Source: Reyranella sp.
GTDB taxonomy: Bacteria > Pseudomonadota > Alphaproteobacteria > Reyranellales > Reyranellaceae
Reading direction: 5' to 3'
DNA length: 64,000 bases
NCBI GenBank assembly: GCA_030684475.1
Contig: JAUXWB010000156.1
Coordinates: forward strand, 19,592 to 83,591
The position numbers were made by a program, and so were the translations under genes. Below the pieces are notes generated by a model that saw nothing but the letters and a program-made list of their open reading frames with translations, was not told the DNA's origin and searched no databases. Below are positions 897 to 15,725 of the stretch, in pieces (the stretch's first letter is position 1; each line of letters opens with the position of its first letter).

Positions 897-2120
897 ATGA
901 AGACTTGCCGCCTGTGTTCCAGCAAGAACCTGACCGACGCCATCGACCTGGGCGCAATGCCGATCGCCCACCGCATGAGGAAGCGGCAGGACGAGGCCGA
1001 GCAGCACTACCCGCAGCGCTATGTGCTGTGCCGTGATTGCGGCCTGATGCAGATCGCGGACCCGATCGATCCCGAGGAGCTTTATCGGGAATTCAACTTC
1101 TGCTTCTCCGGCTGGAAGCCGCAGCCCCATATCGCGGCGGAGTTCGCGATGATATCGCGCACATCGCCAGGGAAATCGATGCTGGAGATCGGCAGCAACG
1201 ACGGCCTGTTCCTAATCGAGGCACGCAAGAGCGGCTTCGGTCCCCTTCTCGGCATCGAACCCAATCGGCTCGCGACCGAGCAGGCGCGCTCGGGCGGTCT
1301 TTCGATCGTCAACGAGATGCTGACGCCGGCGCTCGCCGCCGACCTTGTGGCCAAGCACGGCAGGTTCGACACCGTCGTCGTGCGGCAGGTGCTCGAGCAC
1401 TTGCTCGACATTCCCGGCTTCTTCACCTGTGTCGACCTGCTCCTTGCACCGCAGGGCATCCTGTTTGTCGACGTGCCCGACGTCGAGCAAGGCATGCGCA
1501 GCGGCGACGCGACAATGCTTTGGGAGGAGCACGTCAACTCCTTCACGACGCCCGTCCTCGAAAGCGCGCTGGCCCGCTTTGGTTTCGCGGTCGTCGAAAG
1601 CGAGCGATACAACTTCTCCGGGGGCACGATCGCGGTCGCGGCGCGACGCGGCGCCGCTCGGGGGACGCCTCTCGATCTCGAGAAGCACCTGGCGGTCGCC
1701 GGCAAATTTGCCGAACGCGTCGAGGGCTACCAGAAGAGGCTGAAATCCGTTCTGAGCCGGGCACGCGACGCCGGCTTTGGCATCGTGCTTTACGGCGCGG
1801 GCAATCGAGCCTGCACCCTGACCAATTCAGGAGATCTCAAGGGGCTGATCGACTACGCGGTGGACGATCAGCTGGAGCGGCAAGGCCTCTTCATGCCGGG
1901 AACGGGCATACCAGTCCGGCCGTCGGCGGAGCTTGCACAGGAGAGCCGGCCGTTTCTTTGCCTCCTGGCCGTGAACAACGAGCACGAGACGAAGGTGACC
2001 GCCAAAGTGCGCGAGCTCGCCCGAGCGCCCGCTCACATCTTTACCGGCCTGTCGCCGGCGGATATCCACGCGGAGCTGGATCGCGTGTCGGCCCTGCTCG
2101 ATCGCGAAAACGCACCATGA
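897..2120 (+). CDS. SAM-dependent sugar C-methyltransferase-like protein with N-terminal Cys-rich zinc-binding domain
   Basis: CRLCSSKNL...CRDCGLMQ followed by MLEIGSNDGLFL SAM motif and EEHVNSFT; architecture of the NovU/TylCIII-like C-methyltransferase group. Confidence 0.8.
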   Translation: MKTCRLCSSKNLTDAIDLGAMPIAHRMRKRQDEAEQHYPQRYVLCRDCGLMQIADPIDPEELYREFNFCFSGWKPQPHIAAEFAMISRTSPGKSMLEIGSNDGLFLIEARKSGFGPLLGIEPNRLATEQARSGGLSIVNEMLTPALAADLVAKHGRFDTVVVRQVLEHLLDIPGFFTCVDLLLAPQGILFVDVPDVEQGMRSGDATMLWEEHVNSFTTPVLESALARFGFAVVESERYNFSGGTIAVAARRGAARGTPLDLEKHLAVAGKFAERVEGYQKRLKSVLSRARDAGFGIVLYGAGNRACTLTNSGDLKGLIDYAVDDQLERQGLFMPGTGIPVRPSAELAQESRPFLCLLAVNNEHETKVTAKVRELARAPAHIFTGLSPADIHAELDRVSALLDRENAP

Positions 2121-3340
2121 GCAATCCGCCGCCTGCGGGCAGGCTTTACTCCTACTATCGCGACTCGGGCATCTCACCGACCTTCGGCTCGCTTCAGACC
2201 GAGGCCGATCTCGATCGCTTCTGCGAGCAACGGGCGCGACTCTTCACGCTGAAGCTGCAGATGCCGCCCGAGATGTTCCGACATGCACGGCTGCTGGAGT
2301 TCGGACCGGACACCGGAGAGAACGCGCTCGTGTTCGCGCGCTGGGGTGCGCAAATCGAACTGGTCGAACCGAACACGGCGGTGTGGCCCCAGCTGCAGGC
2401 CTATTTCCGCCGCTTCGGACTTGAAGACCGACTGCTCGGCCTCCACGACAAGCCGATCCAGGAGTTCTCGCCGGCAGATCCAGCAGACATCGTGGTCGCC
2501 GAAGGGTTCATCCACACCGTCAAACCGGAGAAGCAGTGGATCGACGTCGTACGCAAGGCGGTTCGGCCCGGCGGTTACCTGATCCTGTTCTACTACGAAC
2601 GTCGTGCCCTCCTCATGGAGGCTTTCCATGCGGCGCTCTATCGCGAGTATTGCCGATTGATCGGCCAAAGGGGCCCCGACGTGGCCCGTCGGCTCTATGG
2701 CACGAAATGGGACGCGATTGCCCATGTCAGGCGCTTCAATTCGTGGGTCATGGACGTTCTCGAGAATCCGTACACACGTTCGCAGTTCACGATGGACGCG
2801 CCGCGCCTGGTGCAAATGATGGCCGAGTCGGAGTTCGAGCTTTACCAGTCATGGCCCCGGTATCGGGATGATCTCAGGATGCTGTGGCACAAGACACCGG
2901 AGTCACCGGGGTCGATTGCAGGAGAAGTGACCGGGCATTTGCAACGCAGTGCCCTCAGCCACGCGCTGGGCCGGACGCTCTACTGTATCGGAGACGACGC
3001 CAGCGTCGCGGCGATTGGCCGCCAGCTCGACAGGCTCCTTCAGACGGTCGACCAGGCGATGGAGACGGGCGGTCACCAGGTCTGGACTTCGATTGCGGAG
3101 GGCTTCCTGGACCTGCAGGTAAGCATCGACCAGGACAATGTGATCTACGCCCTGTCGGCAGATGCCCGTCGCTCGGTAAAGGCGATGCTCAACTCCGCCA
3201 GCCGTTGCGCGACCTTGGCGGCAACTGGCGATGCGACCGAATTGGCCGCTTTTGCCAATGTTGATCAGCCGTTCATATCTTTCTGGGGGCAGCCTGCACA
3301 CTATGGCGTCTTCAGAAAGCGCACTCCGACAGACCTCTAG
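2117..3340 (+). CDS. class I SAM-dependent methyltransferase
   Basis: ATGA overlap with the upstream stop (ATG at 2117); MSNPPPAGRLYSYYRDSG...LLEFGPDTGENALVFARWGAQIELVEPN. Confidence 0.75.
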   Translation: MSNPPPAGRLYSYYRDSGISPTFGSLQTEADLDRFCEQRARLFTLKLQMPPEMFRHARLLEFGPDTGENALVFARWGAQIELVEPNTAVWPQLQAYFRRFGLEDRLLGLHDKPIQEFSPADPADIVVAEGFIHTVKPEKQWIDVVRKAVRPGGYLILFYYERRALLMEAFHAALYREYCRLIGQRGPDVARRLYGTKWDAIAHVRRFNSWVMDVLENPYTRSQFTMDAPRLVQMMAESEFELYQSWPRYRDDLRMLWHKTPESPGSIAGEVTGHLQRSALSHALGRTLYCIGDDASVAAIGRQLDRLLQTVDQAMETGGHQVWTSIAEGFLDLQVSIDQDNVIYALSADARRSVKAMLNSASRCATLAATGDATELAAFANVDQPFISFWGQPAHYGVFRKRTPTDL

Positions 3341-3386
3341 ATTTCGCCATTTGGCCAACGGCAATCAACCTAGCGACGGAAAGCGC

Positions 3387-3899
3387 ATGCTGTTTCGATT
3401 GATCCCGCCACCAGAAATCGCGTTAGCGATGGCGCTTTCGCTTCTTCTGCCAATCCTCTTTGCAGCTGTCGGTAAGTCATGGCCCAGTGAATCGATCCTT
3501 GTTCAATTGGCCAAAAGTTCGGCGCTCTGCCTCGTCCTATGGTTAGCCGCTATCAGGCTCATCGGAATCCGAGTAGAGCCAAGCGCAGCGATCGCATGCC
3601 TTTGCATCCTCGCAATTGCCTCCATGGTTCTTTACGTTGGCGTTTCGCTTCTTGCGTATAGTTTTCGCCTTGAGACCCTTCTGACCGTCGGGCGCCATCC
3701 AGATGGGCTGACGTACGAAGAAGTGGCGGCGACCTTCGGCGATGGTGCAGGACTGAGTGCCCTGTCCAATGGTCGTATTCGTACGCTGGAATTGCTGGGA
3801 ATGATCCACCGGGCCGGCGATACAGTGGAGATCACCCCTCTCGGCAGCTTTGTCGCGAAACTTTACGGCGTCGTTCGCAACATCACAAATTTGGTGTGA
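3387..3899 (+). CDS. small membrane protein with C-terminal winged-helix-like tail
   Basis: Hydrophobic N-terminal segments then LTYEEVAATF...RIRTLELLGMIHRAGDTVEITPLGS. ORF opens at 3231; ATG at 3387 preferred. Confidence 0.6.
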   Translation: MLFRLIPPPEIALAMALSLLLPILFAAVGKSWPSESILVQLAKSSALCLVLWLAAIRLIGIRVEPSAAIACLCILAIASMVLYVGVSLLAYSFRLETLLTVGRHPDGLTYEEVAATFGDGAGLSALSNGRIRTLELLGMIHRAGDTVEITPLGSFVAKLYGVVRNITNLV

Positions 3900-4384
3900 T
3901 GATGAGCGACTATGTATGCGCCATTGCGGGTTTTGCACTTGTCCTGCTGCTGTCCTTGGTGTGTCTGCAAGTAACGGCTCGAACCAATCCTTTCCTCGTG
4001 CTCATCACATTGGCAATTCTCATCAATGTATGCACGGCGGCGGGGGCTCATCTCTTTATTCCGACGCTCCGCTATTGGCACTACACGCCGCCTTTTTTCT
4101 TGTTGGTCATGATCACGATTTTTTGCCTGGGAGCGGTGTTTTCTTCGGCATCCCTGCAAGTGCTGCAGGCGATTTCGCAAAGTGGCGGAAAAGCGACTGC
4201 CGCGACTTTGCATGAGGGCGTCATTAAGGAAAATCTGTTCAAACGGCTCGACGAGCACGTCGCCGCGAACCGTGTCCGCCAGTCGGGTGACGCATATCGC
4301 GTCACCGAGAATGGCCGATCTCTCATCACATGGATCGAGAAGTTTAAGCGGTTCTTTTCGATTGAGCAGACAGGAATCTATTGA
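3896..4384 (+). CDS. small membrane protein with C-terminal winged-helix-like tail
   Basis: GTGA overlap with the previous gene; TM segments then ATAATLHEGVIKENLFKRLDEHVAANRVRQSGDAYRVTENGRSLI. Confidence 0.6.
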   Translation: MMMSDYVCAIAGFALVLLLSLVCLQVTARTNPFLVLITLAILINVCTAAGAHLFIPTLRYWHYTPPFFLLVMITIFCLGAVFSSASLQVLQAISQSGGKATAATLHEGVIKENLFKRLDEHVAANRVRQSGDAYRVTENGRSLITWIEKFKRFFSIEQTGIY

Positions 4385-4385
4385 A

Positions 4386-6572
4386 ATGCGGAAGCTGCAA
4401 ACGCCCAATCGGAAAGCCGTCGCGGAAATAGCAAAGCGGAGCTTCAGTGAGTTGAGGACGAGGGTAACGACTTTCTTCCAGGCAAAGGCTTCGGGTTTTG
4501 TGGACGCCTCTGAGGCTTGGTGTTCGGGACCGCAGACAAGTACCGGAATGCTTCGCGGAACCGCAATTGCGCTATGGGGAGCGTTAATTGGAGCTGTGAT
4601 CGCGTCGCTAGCCGCCTATTGGTTGATCGAGATATCAGAGGCAAGTCGTGCTTATTTCGGGCAGAACCTGGCACAATATCCGGTGTTAGATGAATATAAA
4701 AAATCAGCCCTGACCAAGAATGCAGAGAAGACCTTTTATTTTTTATTCTATGGTTTCGGCGTGATATGTGCTGCTGCGGCACTGCATTTTCGTAGGGCCC
4801 TGGCGCGCACTCGGGCGTTCACCTTCTTGATCTCGGCCAGTGCCGCCATCCCAGCGCTTCATGTGCTGGTCGCCGGAACCACTCAGCGAAGCGATATTTC
4901 GTTCTTCGCCCTGCTGGTTGTCGCCGCAGCTCTGTTCGTTCCCGCTTTAGTGTTTCGCTTTGGCTCGGGGCGGCAGTTGGCGGATGGCGTGCGCCAATCA
5001 AGCACAATCGTTTTTGATCCGAGGCTTCTTCGGATAGACGGATATGTAGTCATAGTGCTCGCACTGCTGATTATTCCCTTAAAGCTTCAATTTATTGCGT
5101 ATGAAAGTGCATATAACAGTCATCCGGTATCATTTTTGATCGGCCCAGCACTGTCCGCACTTGCTGATGGGTTGTTGCCTGGTCGGGATTTCATCGCATT
5201 TTATGGGCAAGGCCCATCCTATCTATTCCGCCCATTCCTAAGTACGGATCTTGCGGCAGTATACGGGCGCTATGTCGTCTTTCTGTCGGCGATTGTCTTT
5301 GCAATCCACGTGTCTTGCTATTTTGTCTTGCGCGATTTTTATCGCGATCGCGCCCTCGCTTGCGTGACCGCAATTGCATTGATCTTCACTTATCATTTTG
5401 GAGCCGGTTCCGTGCTTATGGGACCATCAGCTCTCCCGGTACGGTTTGCCTTGATCTTCGTTCTCGCTGCGGTGACGGTTCAAGCAATGACCAGCTCAAG
5501 AAGCATTCGCTGGCTGCTGCTGAGCGGTGCAATCGTCGGCGTTTCAGTATTTTGGAACAGCGAAACCGGCGTCCTCATGTTCGTGGCAGTTCCGGTCGCT
5601 TACGTCGGGAATGAAATTTTCAACAGGAAGTTTCCGTGGCGGATCTTCTTCTTCATCGCTTCCGCGATCGCTACTTTTTTGGCTGTGTCAGCCGCCGCAT
5701 TTGGAGTCGACGCGCTTAGCCAACCTTTTTTTGCATCGCTTGTGGAGCCCCTTCGCCTGCACTCGGCAGGAAACTGGGTGGGCATCGTTATGAATTGGGA
5801 GCCTGGAAGCGGCTATATCTACCAGATCAGCGCCCCAGCAGTTGCAATCGCGACCGGCATGGCGGCTCTGGCGAGGGGCAAAGATGCCGAGCCACGACTA
5901 GACCGAGAGAGGGCTTATTTGATCTTTTTCTCTATTGTCGCACTGATCTTTACTCCGAAATGGATCAATCGCTCCCTGGATGCCGTATGGCAACAAAATG
6001 CTTTCGCATTCCTAATCATTGCGGTGTGGTGGGCACGAATTGCTCTAAGAGGCGCGTATTCCTACTACCCGTCCAAGAACGGCGCAGCGACGCTCATTGC
6101 CTCCGGTGGGATTTTTGCCCTGTTGATGCTCTGGAGTATAGCGGATCGCCTGCAGCCCAACATTAAAGTCGGCCTCAAAGCGTACGTCGAATTCCCTACC
6201 GCTATCAATCTCTCGCGCTTGTTTCGCAGCGAAGATTATGGGATCGACATGCTCGTGGATGACAGCGATTTCAAGCTGGTCAATTCATTGCTCAAGCTGC
6301 GGGAGCCAATGCTGCTCCTTTCGAATCGGGACTGGTTGGTCCTGATGAAGCTGGGACGAGCACCCAAGAGCTATTTCCTGCCACTCGATGAAATCTTTAG
6401 TTCTGATCATTTGGCGCGAAGTTTCGATGGTGCCAAGTACTTGTTCGTAGATCGAGACTACAAGTTCCCCCCATATGTTTGGCTCAAAGACGATCTTCAG
6501 GATCGCCTGCAGCGTGAATTTCGTTTGGTGGGCGAATCTACGCGATTTCTGGTATACGGACGCATACAATGA
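4386..6572 (+). CDS. large multi-TM membrane protein, possible GT-C-type glycosyltransferase
   Basis: ATG at 4386 one base after the upstream TGA; many hydrophobic segments and a soluble C-terminus. No catalytic motif confirmed. Confidence 0.6.
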   Translation: MRKLQTPNRKAVAEIAKRSFSELRTRVTTFFQAKASGFVDASEAWCSGPQTSTGMLRGTAIALWGALIGAVIASLAAYWLIEISEASRAYFGQNLAQYPVLDEYKKSALTKNAEKTFYFLFYGFGVICAAAALHFRRALARTRAFTFLISASAAIPALHVLVAGTTQRSDISFFALLVVAAALFVPALVFRFGSGRQLADGVRQSSTIVFDPRLLRIDGYVVIVLALLIIPLKLQFIAYESAYNSHPVSFLIGPALSALADGLLPGRDFIAFYGQGPSYLFRPFLSTDLAAVYGRYVVFLSAIVFAIHVSCYFVLRDFYRDRALACVTAIALIFTYHFGAGSVLMGPSALPVRFALIFVLAAVTVQAMTSSRSIRWLLLSGAIVGVSVFWNSETGVLMFVAVPVAYVGNEIFNRKFPWRIFFFIASAIATFLAVSAAAFGVDALSQPFFASLVEPLRLHSAGNWVGIVMNWEPGSGYIYQISAPAVAIATGMAALARGKDAEPRLDRERAYLIFFSIVALIFTPKWINRSLDAVWQQNAFAFLIIAVWWARIALRGAYSYYPSKNGAATLIASGGIFALLMLWSIADRLQPNIKVGLKAYVEFPTAINLSRLFRSEDYGIDMLVDDSDFKLVNSLLKLREPMLLLSNRDWLVLMKLGRAPKSYFLPLDEIFSSDHLARSFDGAKYLFVDRDYKFPPYVWLKDDLQDRLQREFRLVGESTRFLVYGRIQ

Positions 6573-6752
6573 ACACATCCGGTGTTCCGTCCAGATTTTG
6601 GTCGATGTGGTAATTGTAGCGGAGTCGGACGTCCTTCATTGACCGCCCTTTGATTTGCTATAGCATTTTGCCGCTTTCTCAACCTCCGCTTCGTGTAGAG
6701 TGCCATTGATTCGAAGCAATTCAATCCCCTTCCGGCCCGAGAACTTTGCCGT

Positions 6753-7760
6753 GTGATGTTTCTTACGAATACCGGTTTCAGAACGGCGATTTCCGTATTG
6801 TTGCTCTGCGCTGCTATCGCCTATCTGCTTACGCGCGACGAGTGTTGTTCGATGGATTCAAAGCTGCTGCTTGCCGCGGCGGCCATACAGCCCGTCAACA
6901 TGCTCGTTATTGCGACGTTGGCGTGGCGCTTTGTCCTGCTCGCGCATCCGCCGCGCCCTGGTCTTTGGTCGAGTTTCAAGGCCAGCATGCTGGCAACCGG
7001 GCTGAACATCTTGCTCCCTGCCCGCGGCGGCGACTTTGTCAGGCTTACTTATCTCCGGCAGCGCGAGGGCACGCCGCTCGGTACGGGTCTTTCCATTTCG
7101 ATCATTGAGCGGGTTGCCGATCTGATCGTGCTCTCCGCGATGGCGATCATCGTCGCCAGCTTGGTATTGCAGTCGCAAGTCATCGTGCCGATCGTCGCGA
7201 TCGCGGCACTCGGCGTTGGACTAATTATGCTCTCGGCGCTGCTGCCGTTCTGGCTCGCCATCCTGTACAGGATATTTCCAGCCGCCATGGCAAATTTTCT
7301 CGCGTCGGTCATGACGGAGACTGCGGCTCGAATCCGCGACGGAAAGATCTTTCTCGCGCTCGGCGCTTCCGTCATCTTCATGGGGCTGGGTCTGGTTGCA
7401 ACCCTGATTTTTTTCCGGATCGCGACCGAACAGGAGTTCTCGCTCACCCTCGCGGCGATGGTCCTTGTTTTCGCGAGCCTTGGCGGTGCGATCCCGATCC
7501 TTCCCGGCGGCCTTGCCACATTCGAAGCCGGGGTTATCGCAGCCCTGATGTATGGCGGATATTCGGCAAGCGACGCCCTAATGCTGGCAGTCGTCTATCG
7601 CCTTCAGCAGTACGTCATGGCGACGCCTCTCGCCCTGGTGATCGCTTCCCGTGAGCGCGTCGGCCTGAGCGCGATGTTTTCTGAAATGTTTCGACTGTTT
7701 ACGAACCGGCGCGCGCGAAGGGCCCCAACTCCGACATCCTCTGTGAATGAAAAGCGTTAG
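6753..7760 (+). CDS. LPG_synthase_TM (UPF0104) flippase-like membrane protein
   Basis: ATGLNILLPARGGDFVRLTYLRQREGTPLGTGLSISIIERVADL and GGLATFEAGVIAALMYGGYSASDALMLAVVYRL are typical of the family. Confidence 0.8.
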   Translation: MMFLTNTGFRTAISVLLLCAAIAYLLTRDECCSMDSKLLLAAAAIQPVNMLVIATLAWRFVLLAHPPRPGLWSSFKASMLATGLNILLPARGGDFVRLTYLRQREGTPLGTGLSISIIERVADLIVLSAMAIIVASLVLQSQVIVPIVAIAALGVGLIMLSALLPFWLAILYRIFPAAMANFLASVMTETAARIRDGKIFLALGASVIFMGLGLVATLIFFRIATEQEFSLTLAAMVLVFASLGGAIPILPGGLATFEAGVIAALMYGGYSASDALMLAVVYRLQQYVMATPLALVIASRERVGLSAMFSEMFRLFTNRRARRAPTPTSSVNEKR

Positions 7761-11319: not shown

Positions 11320-11461
11320 GCGTCGACTCTACGGCTCAAGCCGAACGTTTGGCTCCCTTCATCATCTCCCGTCAGTTCTCTTCATGGTGCCGCTCAATTC
11401 TCGCGCATGGTCGCCGCGACGGACAGATTGTCGGCAACCCATCTTCGAGTATTGTCGTCGA

Positions 11462-12679
11462 ATGACCGTCGACCAAGCAGTGTTTCTCGTCGGAGGACTC
11501 GGCACGCGCCTGGGCAGCCTTACGGCCCACAGCGCCAAGCCCGTTCTCGACGTTGCCGGCAAGCCATTCGTGGAACACCTGCTCGGCGAGGCGAACCGAT
11601 TCGGCTTTCGGAAGGCCCTGCTGCTTTGCGGCCATCGGGCGGCGGACCTTCGCGCTGCCTATGACGGGAGGAGATTTGGTGACTTGAAGGTCGAGGTTGC
11701 GGTCGAAGCCGAGCCGGCTGGCACTGCGGGCGCGCTTGCGTTATCGGCCGACAGGCTGGACGAAGTCTTTCTCCTCGCCAACGGAGACTCCTTCTTCGAT
11801 TTCAACTGGCTCGCCCTCCTCCCGTCCCTCGAGCGTGACGACTGGACCATGCATGCCGCGCTGGCGCTCGGCGTACCCGGCGGCCGGTACGGCCGCGTGG
11901 AGCTCGAGGGGGACCGCATCTCCCGCTTCCTGCCCAAGGGCGAAGGCGACCTGCCGATCAATGCCGGAATCTATCTCGTGCGCCGCCGCCTGCTGGACCG
12001 CATCCAGGCTGTGCCCTGCTCGCTCGAGAACGACATCCTGCCGGCCCTGGCGGCGGAGGGCGGGCTGCTGGGTCGCCCTGTGGAAGGTGCCTTCATCGAT
12101 ATCGGCATTCCCGAGGATTTCGAGCGCGCGCAGTCAGCCCTGCCGATGTTCCTGCGGCGCCCCGCCGTCTTCCTCGACCGCGACGGCGTGCTGAACCACG
12201 ACGACAATTACGTGCACCGGCCCGACCAGGTCCGTTGGACCGATGGCGCCATCGAGGCGGTGCGGTGGCTGAACGATGCGGGCCACTACGTGTTCGTCGT
12301 CACCAACCAGGCGGGCGTGGCGCGCGGCCTCTACGGCGAAGAGGACGTCCTCAGGCTGCACGGCTGGATGCAAAGCGAACTGCGGCGCGTCGGGGCGCAT
12401 ATCGACGGCTTTGAATACTGTCCCTACCACCCCGAGGGCACCGTCGAGGCCTACCGGCGCGTCTCGGAGTTCCGCAAACCCGGTCCCGGCATGATCCTGA
12501 AACTCAAGCAGGCTTGGGCGATCGACGAGGCGAGGTCTTTCCTGATCGGCGACCGGGAGAGCGATCTCCAGGCCGCCGCTGCGGCAGGCATTCCCGGTCA
12601 CCTGTTCACCGGCGGCAACCTGTTCGACTTCGTCAGGCCCCGCGTGCCGGCGCGACGAAGAAATCCCGCCGCCGGTTGA
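11462..12679 (+). CDS. fused sugar nucleotidyltransferase (HddC-like) and HAD-IIIA heptose bisphosphate phosphatase (GmhB-like)
   Basis: N-term MTVDQAVFLVGGLGTRLGSLTAHSAKPVLDVAGKPFVEHLL; C-term PAVFLDRDGVLNHDDNYVHRPDQVRWTDGAIEAVRWLNDAGHYVFVVTNQAGVARGLY...YCPYHPEG. Confidence 0.85.
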   Translation: MTVDQAVFLVGGLGTRLGSLTAHSAKPVLDVAGKPFVEHLLGEANRFGFRKALLLCGHRAADLRAAYDGRRFGDLKVEVAVEAEPAGTAGALALSADRLDEVFLLANGDSFFDFNWLALLPSLERDDWTMHAALALGVPGGRYGRVELEGDRISRFLPKGEGDLPINAGIYLVRRRLLDRIQAVPCSLENDILPALAAEGGLLGRPVEGAFIDIGIPEDFERAQSALPMFLRRPAVFLDRDGVLNHDDNYVHRPDQVRWTDGAIEAVRWLNDAGHYVFVVTNQAGVARGLYGEEDVLRLHGWMQSELRRVGAHIDGFEYCPYHPEGTVEAYRRVSEFRKPGPGMILKLKQAWAIDEARSFLIGDRESDLQAAAAAGIPGHLFTGGNLFDFVRPRVPARRRNPAAG

Positions 12680-13619: not shown

Positions 13620-15725
13620 TCAGTAGTGCCCGGCCAACTCGGGCGTGATCTCGAGAGCGCGCGGAGAGTAGAGATACGCACCCTTCTTGTTGCCCCACCA
13701 GACGATCTCGCGGCACCATTTCTGGAAATCGTCATAGGGCTTGCTGGTGCGGTCGATTTCGACCACCAGAGGCATCTTGCGAAGCAAGGCCGGCTCGCCG
13801 CCCCTCACCTTGTTCCAATAGTCGAGCAGATCGTAGTTGAGCTTCACCTTCACATCGGCCCGCGCGAAAGGCTGATGCACCAGGGCATGGTTGAGGCGAA
13901 CGGCCTCCTCCACGACCTCGACCGGCAGGCCGGAACTCCTCGCCCGCACGGTGTCGGTCAAAAGCTCGCCCGCCTCCCTGTAGAAGGCGTCGAACCTTCC
14001 TTCGGCCGTCAGCTTGACGAAAATATACTCATCCGCCGGCCAGAAGATGTTGAGATACTCCTTCGAGAAGACGTACTCCGAGCCACCCTTCTGGATCGAC
14101 CGGGCCTCGCTTTCGAAGAAGGCATTGATCTCCGCGATCATCGGGAAGCGCCTGGGATCGGCGGCCATGAAGGCCTCGATCATGTCCCGGTAGGAAATGC
14201 CGGAAATGCCGTGCGCCAGAATGAGGGGAATCTGGAAAAGCTTGTCGAAGTGCAGCAGCGCGGTCATCCAGCAGAAGGTGCGAGTACGCCGCCAATCGTC
14301 GAGTGGCGTCGCCGCTGTCGCGATCACCAGGTCCTGGACTTCCGGCACATCGTCGTCGAGTTCGACCCGTTCGCCGTGGATGTTGATGATCTTTGATTCG
14401 ACCGTGACCATGCCGTACTTCGCCTGATAGGCCGGATCGCCCATCTCGGCGTTGGGCAGGATCGACAGGTTGTTGAACTGGATGCGGTTGTGCTGGCCGT
14501 TTTCCATCAGCAGGTCGACGCCCCTGACGAACGACTCGTAGGTCTCGCCGGGCAGGCCCAGGATCAGGTCCGAGTAGGTCTCGACCTTGTCGCGTGTGAA
14601 ACGGCGCTGCAGCTCCATGTAGGTGCCGAGCGAGATGTTGTCGCGCTTGATCGCCTCCAGGGTCGGCATGTCGACGCTCTGCATGGAGAGCGCCACCCCC
14701 TTGTTGAGGCCGGCGTCCGAGAGAATCTTCTGCGTCTCGTAGGCACGCTCGGTGGCGTTCTTGGTGTTCTGCACCGAGAGCGCCACCGGATAGCCGGTCT
14801 GCTTTTTGATGCCGGCGACGTAGTTGGCGATGTCGACGTCGCGCTTCTGGATGCCGAAGTTGGCGTCGCAGCAGAATATGTATTCGATCTTCTTTTCGGC
14901 GAACCAGTCGACCTCGCGGAACAGGCGCTCTTCGCCGAACTTCGTCACCTTGGCGGCCGTCGCCGAGCCCCAGTCGCAGAAGGTGCAGCGGAACGGGCAG
15001 CCGCGGTTGGTTTCCCACAGGCCGATCCAGCTTTCCTCCCGATTGGCCGCCATGATCTCGTCGAAGGCACCTTCGAGGAAGGGCGACGGGATTTCGTCGA
15101 GATCACGCACGCGATCGATGTTCTTGGTCCGGACGAAGGTGCCGTCCGGCTTCACCATGCTGATCCCCGGGATCGTCTCCCAGCTTGCCCGATCGTGGAA
15201 GGTCTCGAGAAGCTTCAGGAACGTGCGCTCGCCCTCGTTGTGGACGGCGAGATCGATCTGCGGATTGGCCCGCATGAACGATTCAGACTGGTCCGGCACG
15301 TGCGGCCCGCCGAAGATCACGACGATACCGGGCTTCAAGGCTTTCAGCCGGCGCGCGATCTCGAGCGAAATTCTGCCGTTCCAGACGTAGGTGCTGAAGC
15401 CGACGATGTCGGCGTCCTTCATCGCCTCGACCGCATCCGCGATACGCACGCGCTTGTAGAGCGGCGGCAGGAAGCGATACCGGCCGGGCTCGGGCGCAAA
15501 CTTCTGCACATAGGTCTGCAGCAATGCGACCGAATAGGGTAGATAGTTCTGCCCCGAAAACGAGTTGTTGATCTGGACCAAGCCGACCGTCAGCGCCCCG
15601 GTGGAGGGCGCCGCCTGCGCGATGGATCCTGCGGCTTGTGGCGTCGACATTCGCTGCGCCTCGTGGCCCTCCGTCCCCTCGTCGGCGAGGCTTGCTAGAC
15701 CGATGACAGGCTGGAATTGAATCAC
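13620..15725 (-). CDS. B12-binding domain radical SAM protein
   Basis: N-terminal B12-binding-like region (DIVGFSTYVWNG...VVIFGGPHVPDQ) and radical SAM CxxxCxxC motif in NRGCPFRCTFCDWGSA. Likely start near residue 26. Confidence 0.88.
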   Translation of the reverse strand: MIQFQPVIGLASLADEGTEGHEAQRMSTPQAAGSIAQAAPSTGALTVGLVQINNSFSGQNYLPYSVALLQTYVQKFAPEPGRYRFLPPLYKRVRIADAVEAMKDADIVGFSTYVWNGRISLEIARRLKALKPGIVVIFGGPHVPDQSESFMRANPQIDLAVHNEGERTFLKLLETFHDRASWETIPGISMVKPDGTFVRTKNIDRVRDLDEIPSPFLEGAFDEIMAANREESWIGLWETNRGCPFRCTFCDWGSATAAKVTKFGEERLFREVDWFAEKKIEYIFCCDANFGIQKRDVDIANYVAGIKKQTGYPVALSVQNTKNATERAYETQKILSDAGLNKGVALSMQSVDMPTLEAIKRDNISLGTYMELQRRFTRDKVETYSDLILGLPGETYESFVRGVDLLMENGQHNRIQFNNLSILPNAEMGDPAYQAKYGMVTVESKIINIHGERVELDDDVPEVQDLVIATAATPLDDWRRTRTFCWMTALLHFDKLFQIPLILAHGISGISYRDMIEAFMAADPRRFPMIAEINAFFESEARSIQKGGSEYVFSKEYLNIFWPADEYIFVKLTAEGRFDAFYREAGELLTDTVRARSSGLPVEVVEEAVRLNHALVHQPFARADVKVKLNYDLLDYWNKVRGGEPALLRKMPLVVEIDRTSKPYDDFQKWCREIVWWGNKKGAYLYSPRALEITPELAGHY

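Follow-up and report, generated by a model that had tools for sequence, protein, structure and literature searches.

The gene pair and its neighborhood

The window, a stretch of 64,000 nucleotides from Reyranella sp., contains near its beginning two small genes, which we denote P1 and P2, within a glycan locus that has the following features on the forward strand:

897..2120, + strand: C-methyltransferase of cluster C6 (Methyltransf_13/23/14)
2117..3340, + strand: methyltransferase of cluster C4
3387..3899, + strand: P1, 170 aa, from ATG 3387 to the stop codon TGA at 3897-3899
3666..3896, + strand: P1 tail (residues 94-170), winged-helix-like by homology to the P2 tail
3899..4384, + strand: P2, 161 aa if started at ATG 3899
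4148..4381, + strand: P2 tail (residues 84-161), winged-helix-like by matches to HTH_45, HVO_A0261_N, and Sso10a
4386..6572, + strand: P3, polytopic membrane protein of 728 aa (family C20), GT-C-like by length, number of transmembrane (TM) segments, and context
6753..7760, + strand: LPG_synthase_TM membrane protein (E = 4.9e-34), of the same Pfam family as cluster C14
7747..11319, + strand: GT2/GT-C-like fusion of 1190 aa

Both small proteins have three hydrophobic segments (approximately residues 11-29, 45-63, and 68-92 in P1, and 5-24, 32-52, and 64-86 in P2), followed by a tail of ~75 residues that is predicted to be cytoplasmic. The overlap between the two genes varies with the start of P2, being four bases (GTGA) with GTG 3896, one base (TGATG) with ATG 3899, and none with ATG 3902. 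Because P2 relatives in the alignment of Bradyrhizobium loci begin with MS or MMS, a start at ATG 3899 or 3902 is likelier than one at GTG 3896. An earlier reading of these letters (hereafter the sequence-only reading) had proposed a translationally coupled overlap at GTGA; overlap or adjacency is real, but the GTGA form is disfavored by the relatives. The same reading placed a large membrane protein one base after the pair, and the ATG of P3 at 4386 is indeed one base past the P2 stop at 4384.

The two methyltransferases upstream also neighbor the pair in Bradyrhizobium (E = 2.5e-133 for C6 and E = 2.4e-94 for C4). There, the gene order is C6, C4, C7 (Gfo/Idh oxidoreductase), C5, P1, P2, C1, and C8 (beta-lactamase family), where C5 is a membrane protein of ~556 aa on the strand opposite to the pair, and C1 is a GT2 of 253 aa with no clear TM helix. 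The core is thus a four-gene block of a large GT-C-like membrane protein, P1, P2, and a soluble GT2, with C1 directly after the pair in all 24 loci. One locus (L070, 10291-12006, genome G939) has two tandem GT2 copies after the pair. The window keeps C6, C4, P1, P2, a P3-type protein, the LPG_synthase_TM protein, and the GT2/C11-type fusion. The conservation beside GT-C-like genes that the sequence-only reading had set as a check is found in the Bradyrhizobium loci.

The N-terminal part of the 1190-aa fusion is a GT2 homologous to C1 (E = 1.3e-38) and its C-terminal part is GT-C-like and homologous to C11 (E = 2e-53). The counterparts of the two halves, a C1-type GT2 and a C11-type membrane protein, are separate genes in Bradyrhizobium, and the fusion is, as judged by these homologies, a Rosetta-stone link between the C1-type GT2 and a GT-C-like enzyme. 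C1 itself is a catalytic domain that matches PF00535 (E = 1e-22), and its best PDB matches are structures of ArnC, the Und-P-Ara4FN synthase. Given these matches and the lack of clear TM helices, the GT2 plausibly needs a membrane partner. The C5 and P3 families both have many TM segments and no Pfam or PDB match; C5 carries an invariant acidic DD motif near the N-terminus. Context, TM count, and this motif in C5 make both families putative GT-C enzymes.

Three further reading frames of the window were noted. On the minus strand at 3-620, a frame matches the Gfo/Idh oxidoreductase C7 (E = 2e-12). At 11459-12676, a nucleotidyltransferase and a GmhB-like HAD phosphatase form one protein, whose resemblance to GDP-heptose (HddC/GmhB) enzymes hints at heptose in the glycan. 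A B12-binding radical SAM protein of 701 aa (13620-15725, minus strand) adjoins the glycan cluster.

Distribution of the pair and its joint gain and loss with the GT2

A phylum-wide search with P1 and P2 joined as one query returned the pair from a single genus, in which 48 of the 249 genomes sampled (about one-fifth) have it. By sequence comparison this genus is very probably Bradyrhizobium; in genome G432, the 20 kb around another gene are mostly 87-91% identical to B. niftali. The P1 and P2 of this genus are 21-33% identical to the window proteins. In all 24 distant loci examined, homologs of P1 and P2 adjoin, overlapping by up to 4 bases or lying up to 9 bases apart, and the pairing is thus not chance. 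A scan of the genome collection with P1 alone gave no P1 relatives. Neither protein had relatives in 146 related genomes, ~65 of them from the window's own genus, and P2 had none in 76 genomes of the window's order. A weak P1 match among related genomes (G123, locus L003) was judged to be chance. No match was found in PLSDB plasmids searched with P1, P2, and P3. Within the order of Bradyrhizobium but outside the genus, the P2 profile returned just two weak tail matches; these are in other families of the order (L075 and L076, P2 tail profile E = 1.6e-4 and 7e-4).

The G+C content of P1, P2, and P3 is 52-55% against 64% for the window, and this low G+C, together with the lack of relatives in related genomes, makes the P1-P3 stretch look horizontally acquired. 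Positions 3000-7000, which span the three genes, have 51-57% G+C, which suggests that this part of the glycan locus is an insert with an acquisition history of its own.

Of the 249 genomes, 66 have the C4 methyltransferase, and 47 of the 48 pair-bearing genomes are among them. In the other 19 no pair was detected, and 18 of these made up the pair-less sample. A profile search of the locus found P1, P2, and intact C1 absent in all 18. The flanking C6-C4-C7 genes are retained in these loci (one is without a detectable C6), C7 runs straight into C8 in most of them, and C5 is retained in L084 only. The deletion scars differ in position among genomes: 68 bases from the end of the GT2 survive in L079, and the breakpoints of L080, L081, L090, and L091 lie at other points. 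A tree of the flanking genes (C6+C4+C7 from 39 loci) requires at least seven changes in the presence of the pair; GT2 presence changes along with it in all seven independent comparisons (sign test: P = 0.016), and C5 presence in six or seven of them. These events are suggestive rather than proof, because one deletion removes neighbors regardless of their function and because recombination can spread presence/absence alleles. In the pair-less L093 and L094, the C4 methyltransferase is in pieces, as if the cluster were decaying.

P1 and P2 are a real and conserved pair tied to a GT2, and we infer their function below. At full length they belong to no named family, in keeping with the sequence-only reading, and the literature yielded no paper describing such a membrane winged-helix pair.

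The winged-helix-like tails

When the two families were aligned profile to profile, the match had P = 2e-6 for whole proteins and P = 6e-8 for the tails (hhalign), against P = 0.13 for reversed sequence and P ≥ 0.02 for 18 unrelated neighbor families. Homology of the membrane parts is unsupported (TM against TM, P = 0.07), and BLASTP of P1 against P2 aligned nothing, the tail homology being seen by profiles only. The P2 tail matches HTH_45 (PF14947) with E = 0.0018 and 18.7 bits, below the curated Pfam cut-off of 25.5, and HVO_A0261_N (PF25213) matches 20 of 25 P2 family members, with a best E = 1e-3 that is again below the curated cut-off. Sequence similarity thus makes the P2 tail likely to be a remote relative of HTH_45 and HVO_A0261_N, for which we do not claim membership. 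Against the PDB, the P2 tail gave E = 0.058 with Sso10a (1r7j), and searches with P1, P2, and both families gave no significant match. The P1 tail alone has no library match, and its link to winged helices runs through P2 only. An Arg in helix 3 and, past the wing, a T-x-x-G are invariant in the tails of both proteins. Single-sequence AlphaFold models of P1 and P2 are of too low confidence (pLDDT 57 and 63) to count for or against the fold, and Foldseek with the low-confidence P1 model gave no match at E ≤ 0.001. The winged-helix-like character that the sequence-only reading had seen in the tails is supported statistically, by the tail profiles (P = 6e-8) and by the proximity of P2 to Pfam winged-helix models.

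Topology was read from the charges of the loops. Mean K+R in the relatives is 4.0 in loop 1 vs. 0.1 in loop 2 for P1, and 1.9 vs. ~0.35 for P2, and the N-termini have no K+R; the charge signal in the window P1 and P2 alone is weak. By the positive-inside rule, the basic loop 1 makes both proteins N-out and C-in, with the tails therefore in the cytoplasm. Tails placed in the periplasm would have refuted the sequence-only reading; in both families loop 1 is basic and loop 2 is not, which argues for the cytoplasmic side.

The tails and their relatives HTH_45, HVO_A0261_N, and Sso10a share a predicted helix-helix-helix-wing-helix order, the helix-3 Arg, and the TxxG after the wing. However, the relatives are mainly soluble archaeal DNA-binding proteins, whereas P1 and P2 have the domain C-terminal to three TM helices, with scores under the curated cut-offs. 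If the tails bound DNA as these relatives do, P1 and P2 would be membrane-tethered transcription regulators, a winged-helix heterodimer that binds glycan-gene promoters and senses a lipid-linked intermediate through its membrane part. We consider this rather unlikely. The Bradyrhizobium alignment has conserved sigma-70-like promoter sequences before P1 and before the GT2. The one before the pair (TTGACC-N17-TATAGA), which lies in the gap between the pair and the divergent C5, speaks for a regulator, as do the basic P1 tails of Bradyrhizobium (pI ~10.7). Tail pI, however, is not conserved between the window and the relatives (P1: 6.1 vs. 10.7; P2: 9.6 vs. 7.0), inverted repeats in both intergenic regions are no more conserved than in column-shuffled controls, and the pair never persists without the GT2, while other glycan genes persist without the pair. 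The joint gain and loss of the pair and the GT2, and intergenic regions in which no operator-like palindrome is conserved, instead favor the second of the two options that the sequence-only reading had offered, winged helices repurposed as a structural module, over the first, the sensing of a glycan intermediate.

A candidate membrane partner of the GT2

Three-component glycosylation systems consist of a polyprenyl-P-sugar synthase, a membrane partner or flippase, and a GT-C enzyme (PMC11127046, PMC7389260). The P1/P2 block is like GtrA-GtrB-Gtr (O-antigen glucosylation) and the GtcA/CsbB/YfhO type in encoding small membrane protein(s), a GT2, and a large multi-pass protein together, and its GT2 is probably, like theirs, related to polyprenyl-P-sugar synthases. 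It differs in that the place of a single 4-TM GtrA is taken by two 3-TM proteins whose winged-helix tails are cytoplasmic, and in a GT2 without C-terminal TM helices; none of 25 P1 or 25 P2 members matches GtrA (Pfam) at E ≤ 1. With ArnC/ArnE-ArnF/ArnT (aminoarabinose transfer) the block shares a small membrane pair and a large protein that is likely the final transferase, and its GT2 is closest to ArnC in the PDB. In contrast to ArnE/ArnF, P1 and P2 have soluble tails and are not EamA/SMR-like (no match among the 25 P1 and 25 P2 members), and the large proteins have no detectable similarity to ArnT. The dolichyl-phosphate-mannose synthase DPM1-DPM2-DPM3 and Ppm1-Ppm2 resemble the block in having a soluble GT2 with separate membrane subunits, and fusion forms exist. 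P1 and P2 are unrelated in sequence to DPM2, DPM3, and Lnt (Ppm2), where the winged-helix tails have no counterpart, and members of the two families do not match DPM2/DPM3 at E ≤ 1. DPM1, which has no TM domain, needs DPM3 in eukaryotes (PMC7728079), and Ppm1 binds the membrane protein Ppm2 in mycobacteria, where the GT2 appears to use a membrane subunit (PMC3460810).

The make-up of the block fits three-component systems, and with the DPM1/DPM3 and Ppm1-Ppm2 precedents this leads us to favor P1 and P2 as the membrane partner of the GT2. We give an even chance to the proposal that sugar is transferred here by three components, a GT2, a membrane partner, and a GT-C, and that P1 and P2 are the membrane partner, on whose winged helices the GT2 docks. 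The GT2 would charge a polyprenyl phosphate carrier with a sugar at the cytoplasmic face, and P1 and P2, as the small subunits of a membrane complex working for this GT2, would hold it at the membrane by winged helices that bind protein rather than DNA. The pair might also carry the lipid-linked sugar across the membrane. Its transfer to a glycan outside would fall to a GT-C-like enzyme, which would be C5 in Bradyrhizobium and either P3 or the GT2/GT-C fusion in the window. P1 and P2 would in this way fill the place of GtrA, ArnE/ArnF, or DPM2/DPM3, though unrelated to them by sequence. Putative parts of this scheme are the lipid substrate of the GT2, its physical contact with the pair, the assignment of the large membrane proteins to GT-C, and flipping, should it occur. 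More tentatively, and with somewhat less than an even chance, the pair may represent an undescribed class of membrane component, in which a 3-TM pair docks a soluble GT2 by winged helices and delivers its product to or across the membrane.

The topology agrees with docking in placing the tails on the cytoplasmic side, where the GT2 works. On the other hand, named relatives of the fold class bind DNA, and the GT2 of the window has its own anchor in the fused many-helix GT-C-like domain, yet the pair is retained. The ~140 bases between P2 and the GT2 in the Bradyrhizobium alignment contain a promoter-like sequence, so the GT2, with an apparent promoter of its own, need not be co-transcribed with the pair. 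If the docking proposal holds, P1 and P2 would be a case of winged helices serving as protein-docking modules on a membrane, in pathways of polyprenyl-phosphate sugars whose membrane partners and flippases are poorly known. Two so far nameless families gain a function-linked context, and a pair whose presence tracks that of a single GT2 offers a compact, testable system in Bradyrhizobium.

A reading that we regard as improbable is that P1 and P2 act as a heterodimeric polyprenyl-phosphate-sugar flippase in the manner of ArnE/ArnF; the flipping would then be done by the membrane parts, and the tails would only help in assembly. Small paired membrane proteins occupy the flippase place in the Arn system, and the four-gene block holds no other candidate flippase. 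GtrA-type proteins occupy the same place in Gtr systems, where direct biochemical evidence for the flippase role of GtrA is missing (PMC11127046, PMC7389260). Each of the two proteins, however, has three TM segments instead of four, both have the same topology, and neither resembles GtrA, EamA/SMR, or MATE models. Conservation in the pair extends to the tails and to the junction between TM3 and tail, and the LPG_synthase_TM protein, encoded in the window and in 12 of the 24 loci, could do the job as a possible independent flippase.

The arrangement in the window, with P3 one base after P2 and the GT2 3.4 kb further on, would suit a pair that assists the large membrane protein (C5/P3), for instance as a chain-length or specificity factor, and that is tied to the GT2 by gene order only. 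The three pair loci without C5 (L064, L066, and the window) all have a P3-type protein, which also speaks for this reading. We nevertheless see little chance for this explanation, as P3 relatives (L008-L011) and C5 (L084) occur without the pair and the pair is never found without a GT2. The close relatives of P3 in Bradyrhizobium, at 38-40% identity, are those of L008-L011, which carry no pair, and P3 was accordingly rejected as a bait for it; more distant P3 relatives do occur in pair-bearing loci. The large membrane proteins C11, C14, C17, and C20 are swapped among strains (L056, L066, L024, L022, L064, and other pair loci), and C6-C4-C7 stay constant while the large membrane proteins vary, as in serotype-type loci.
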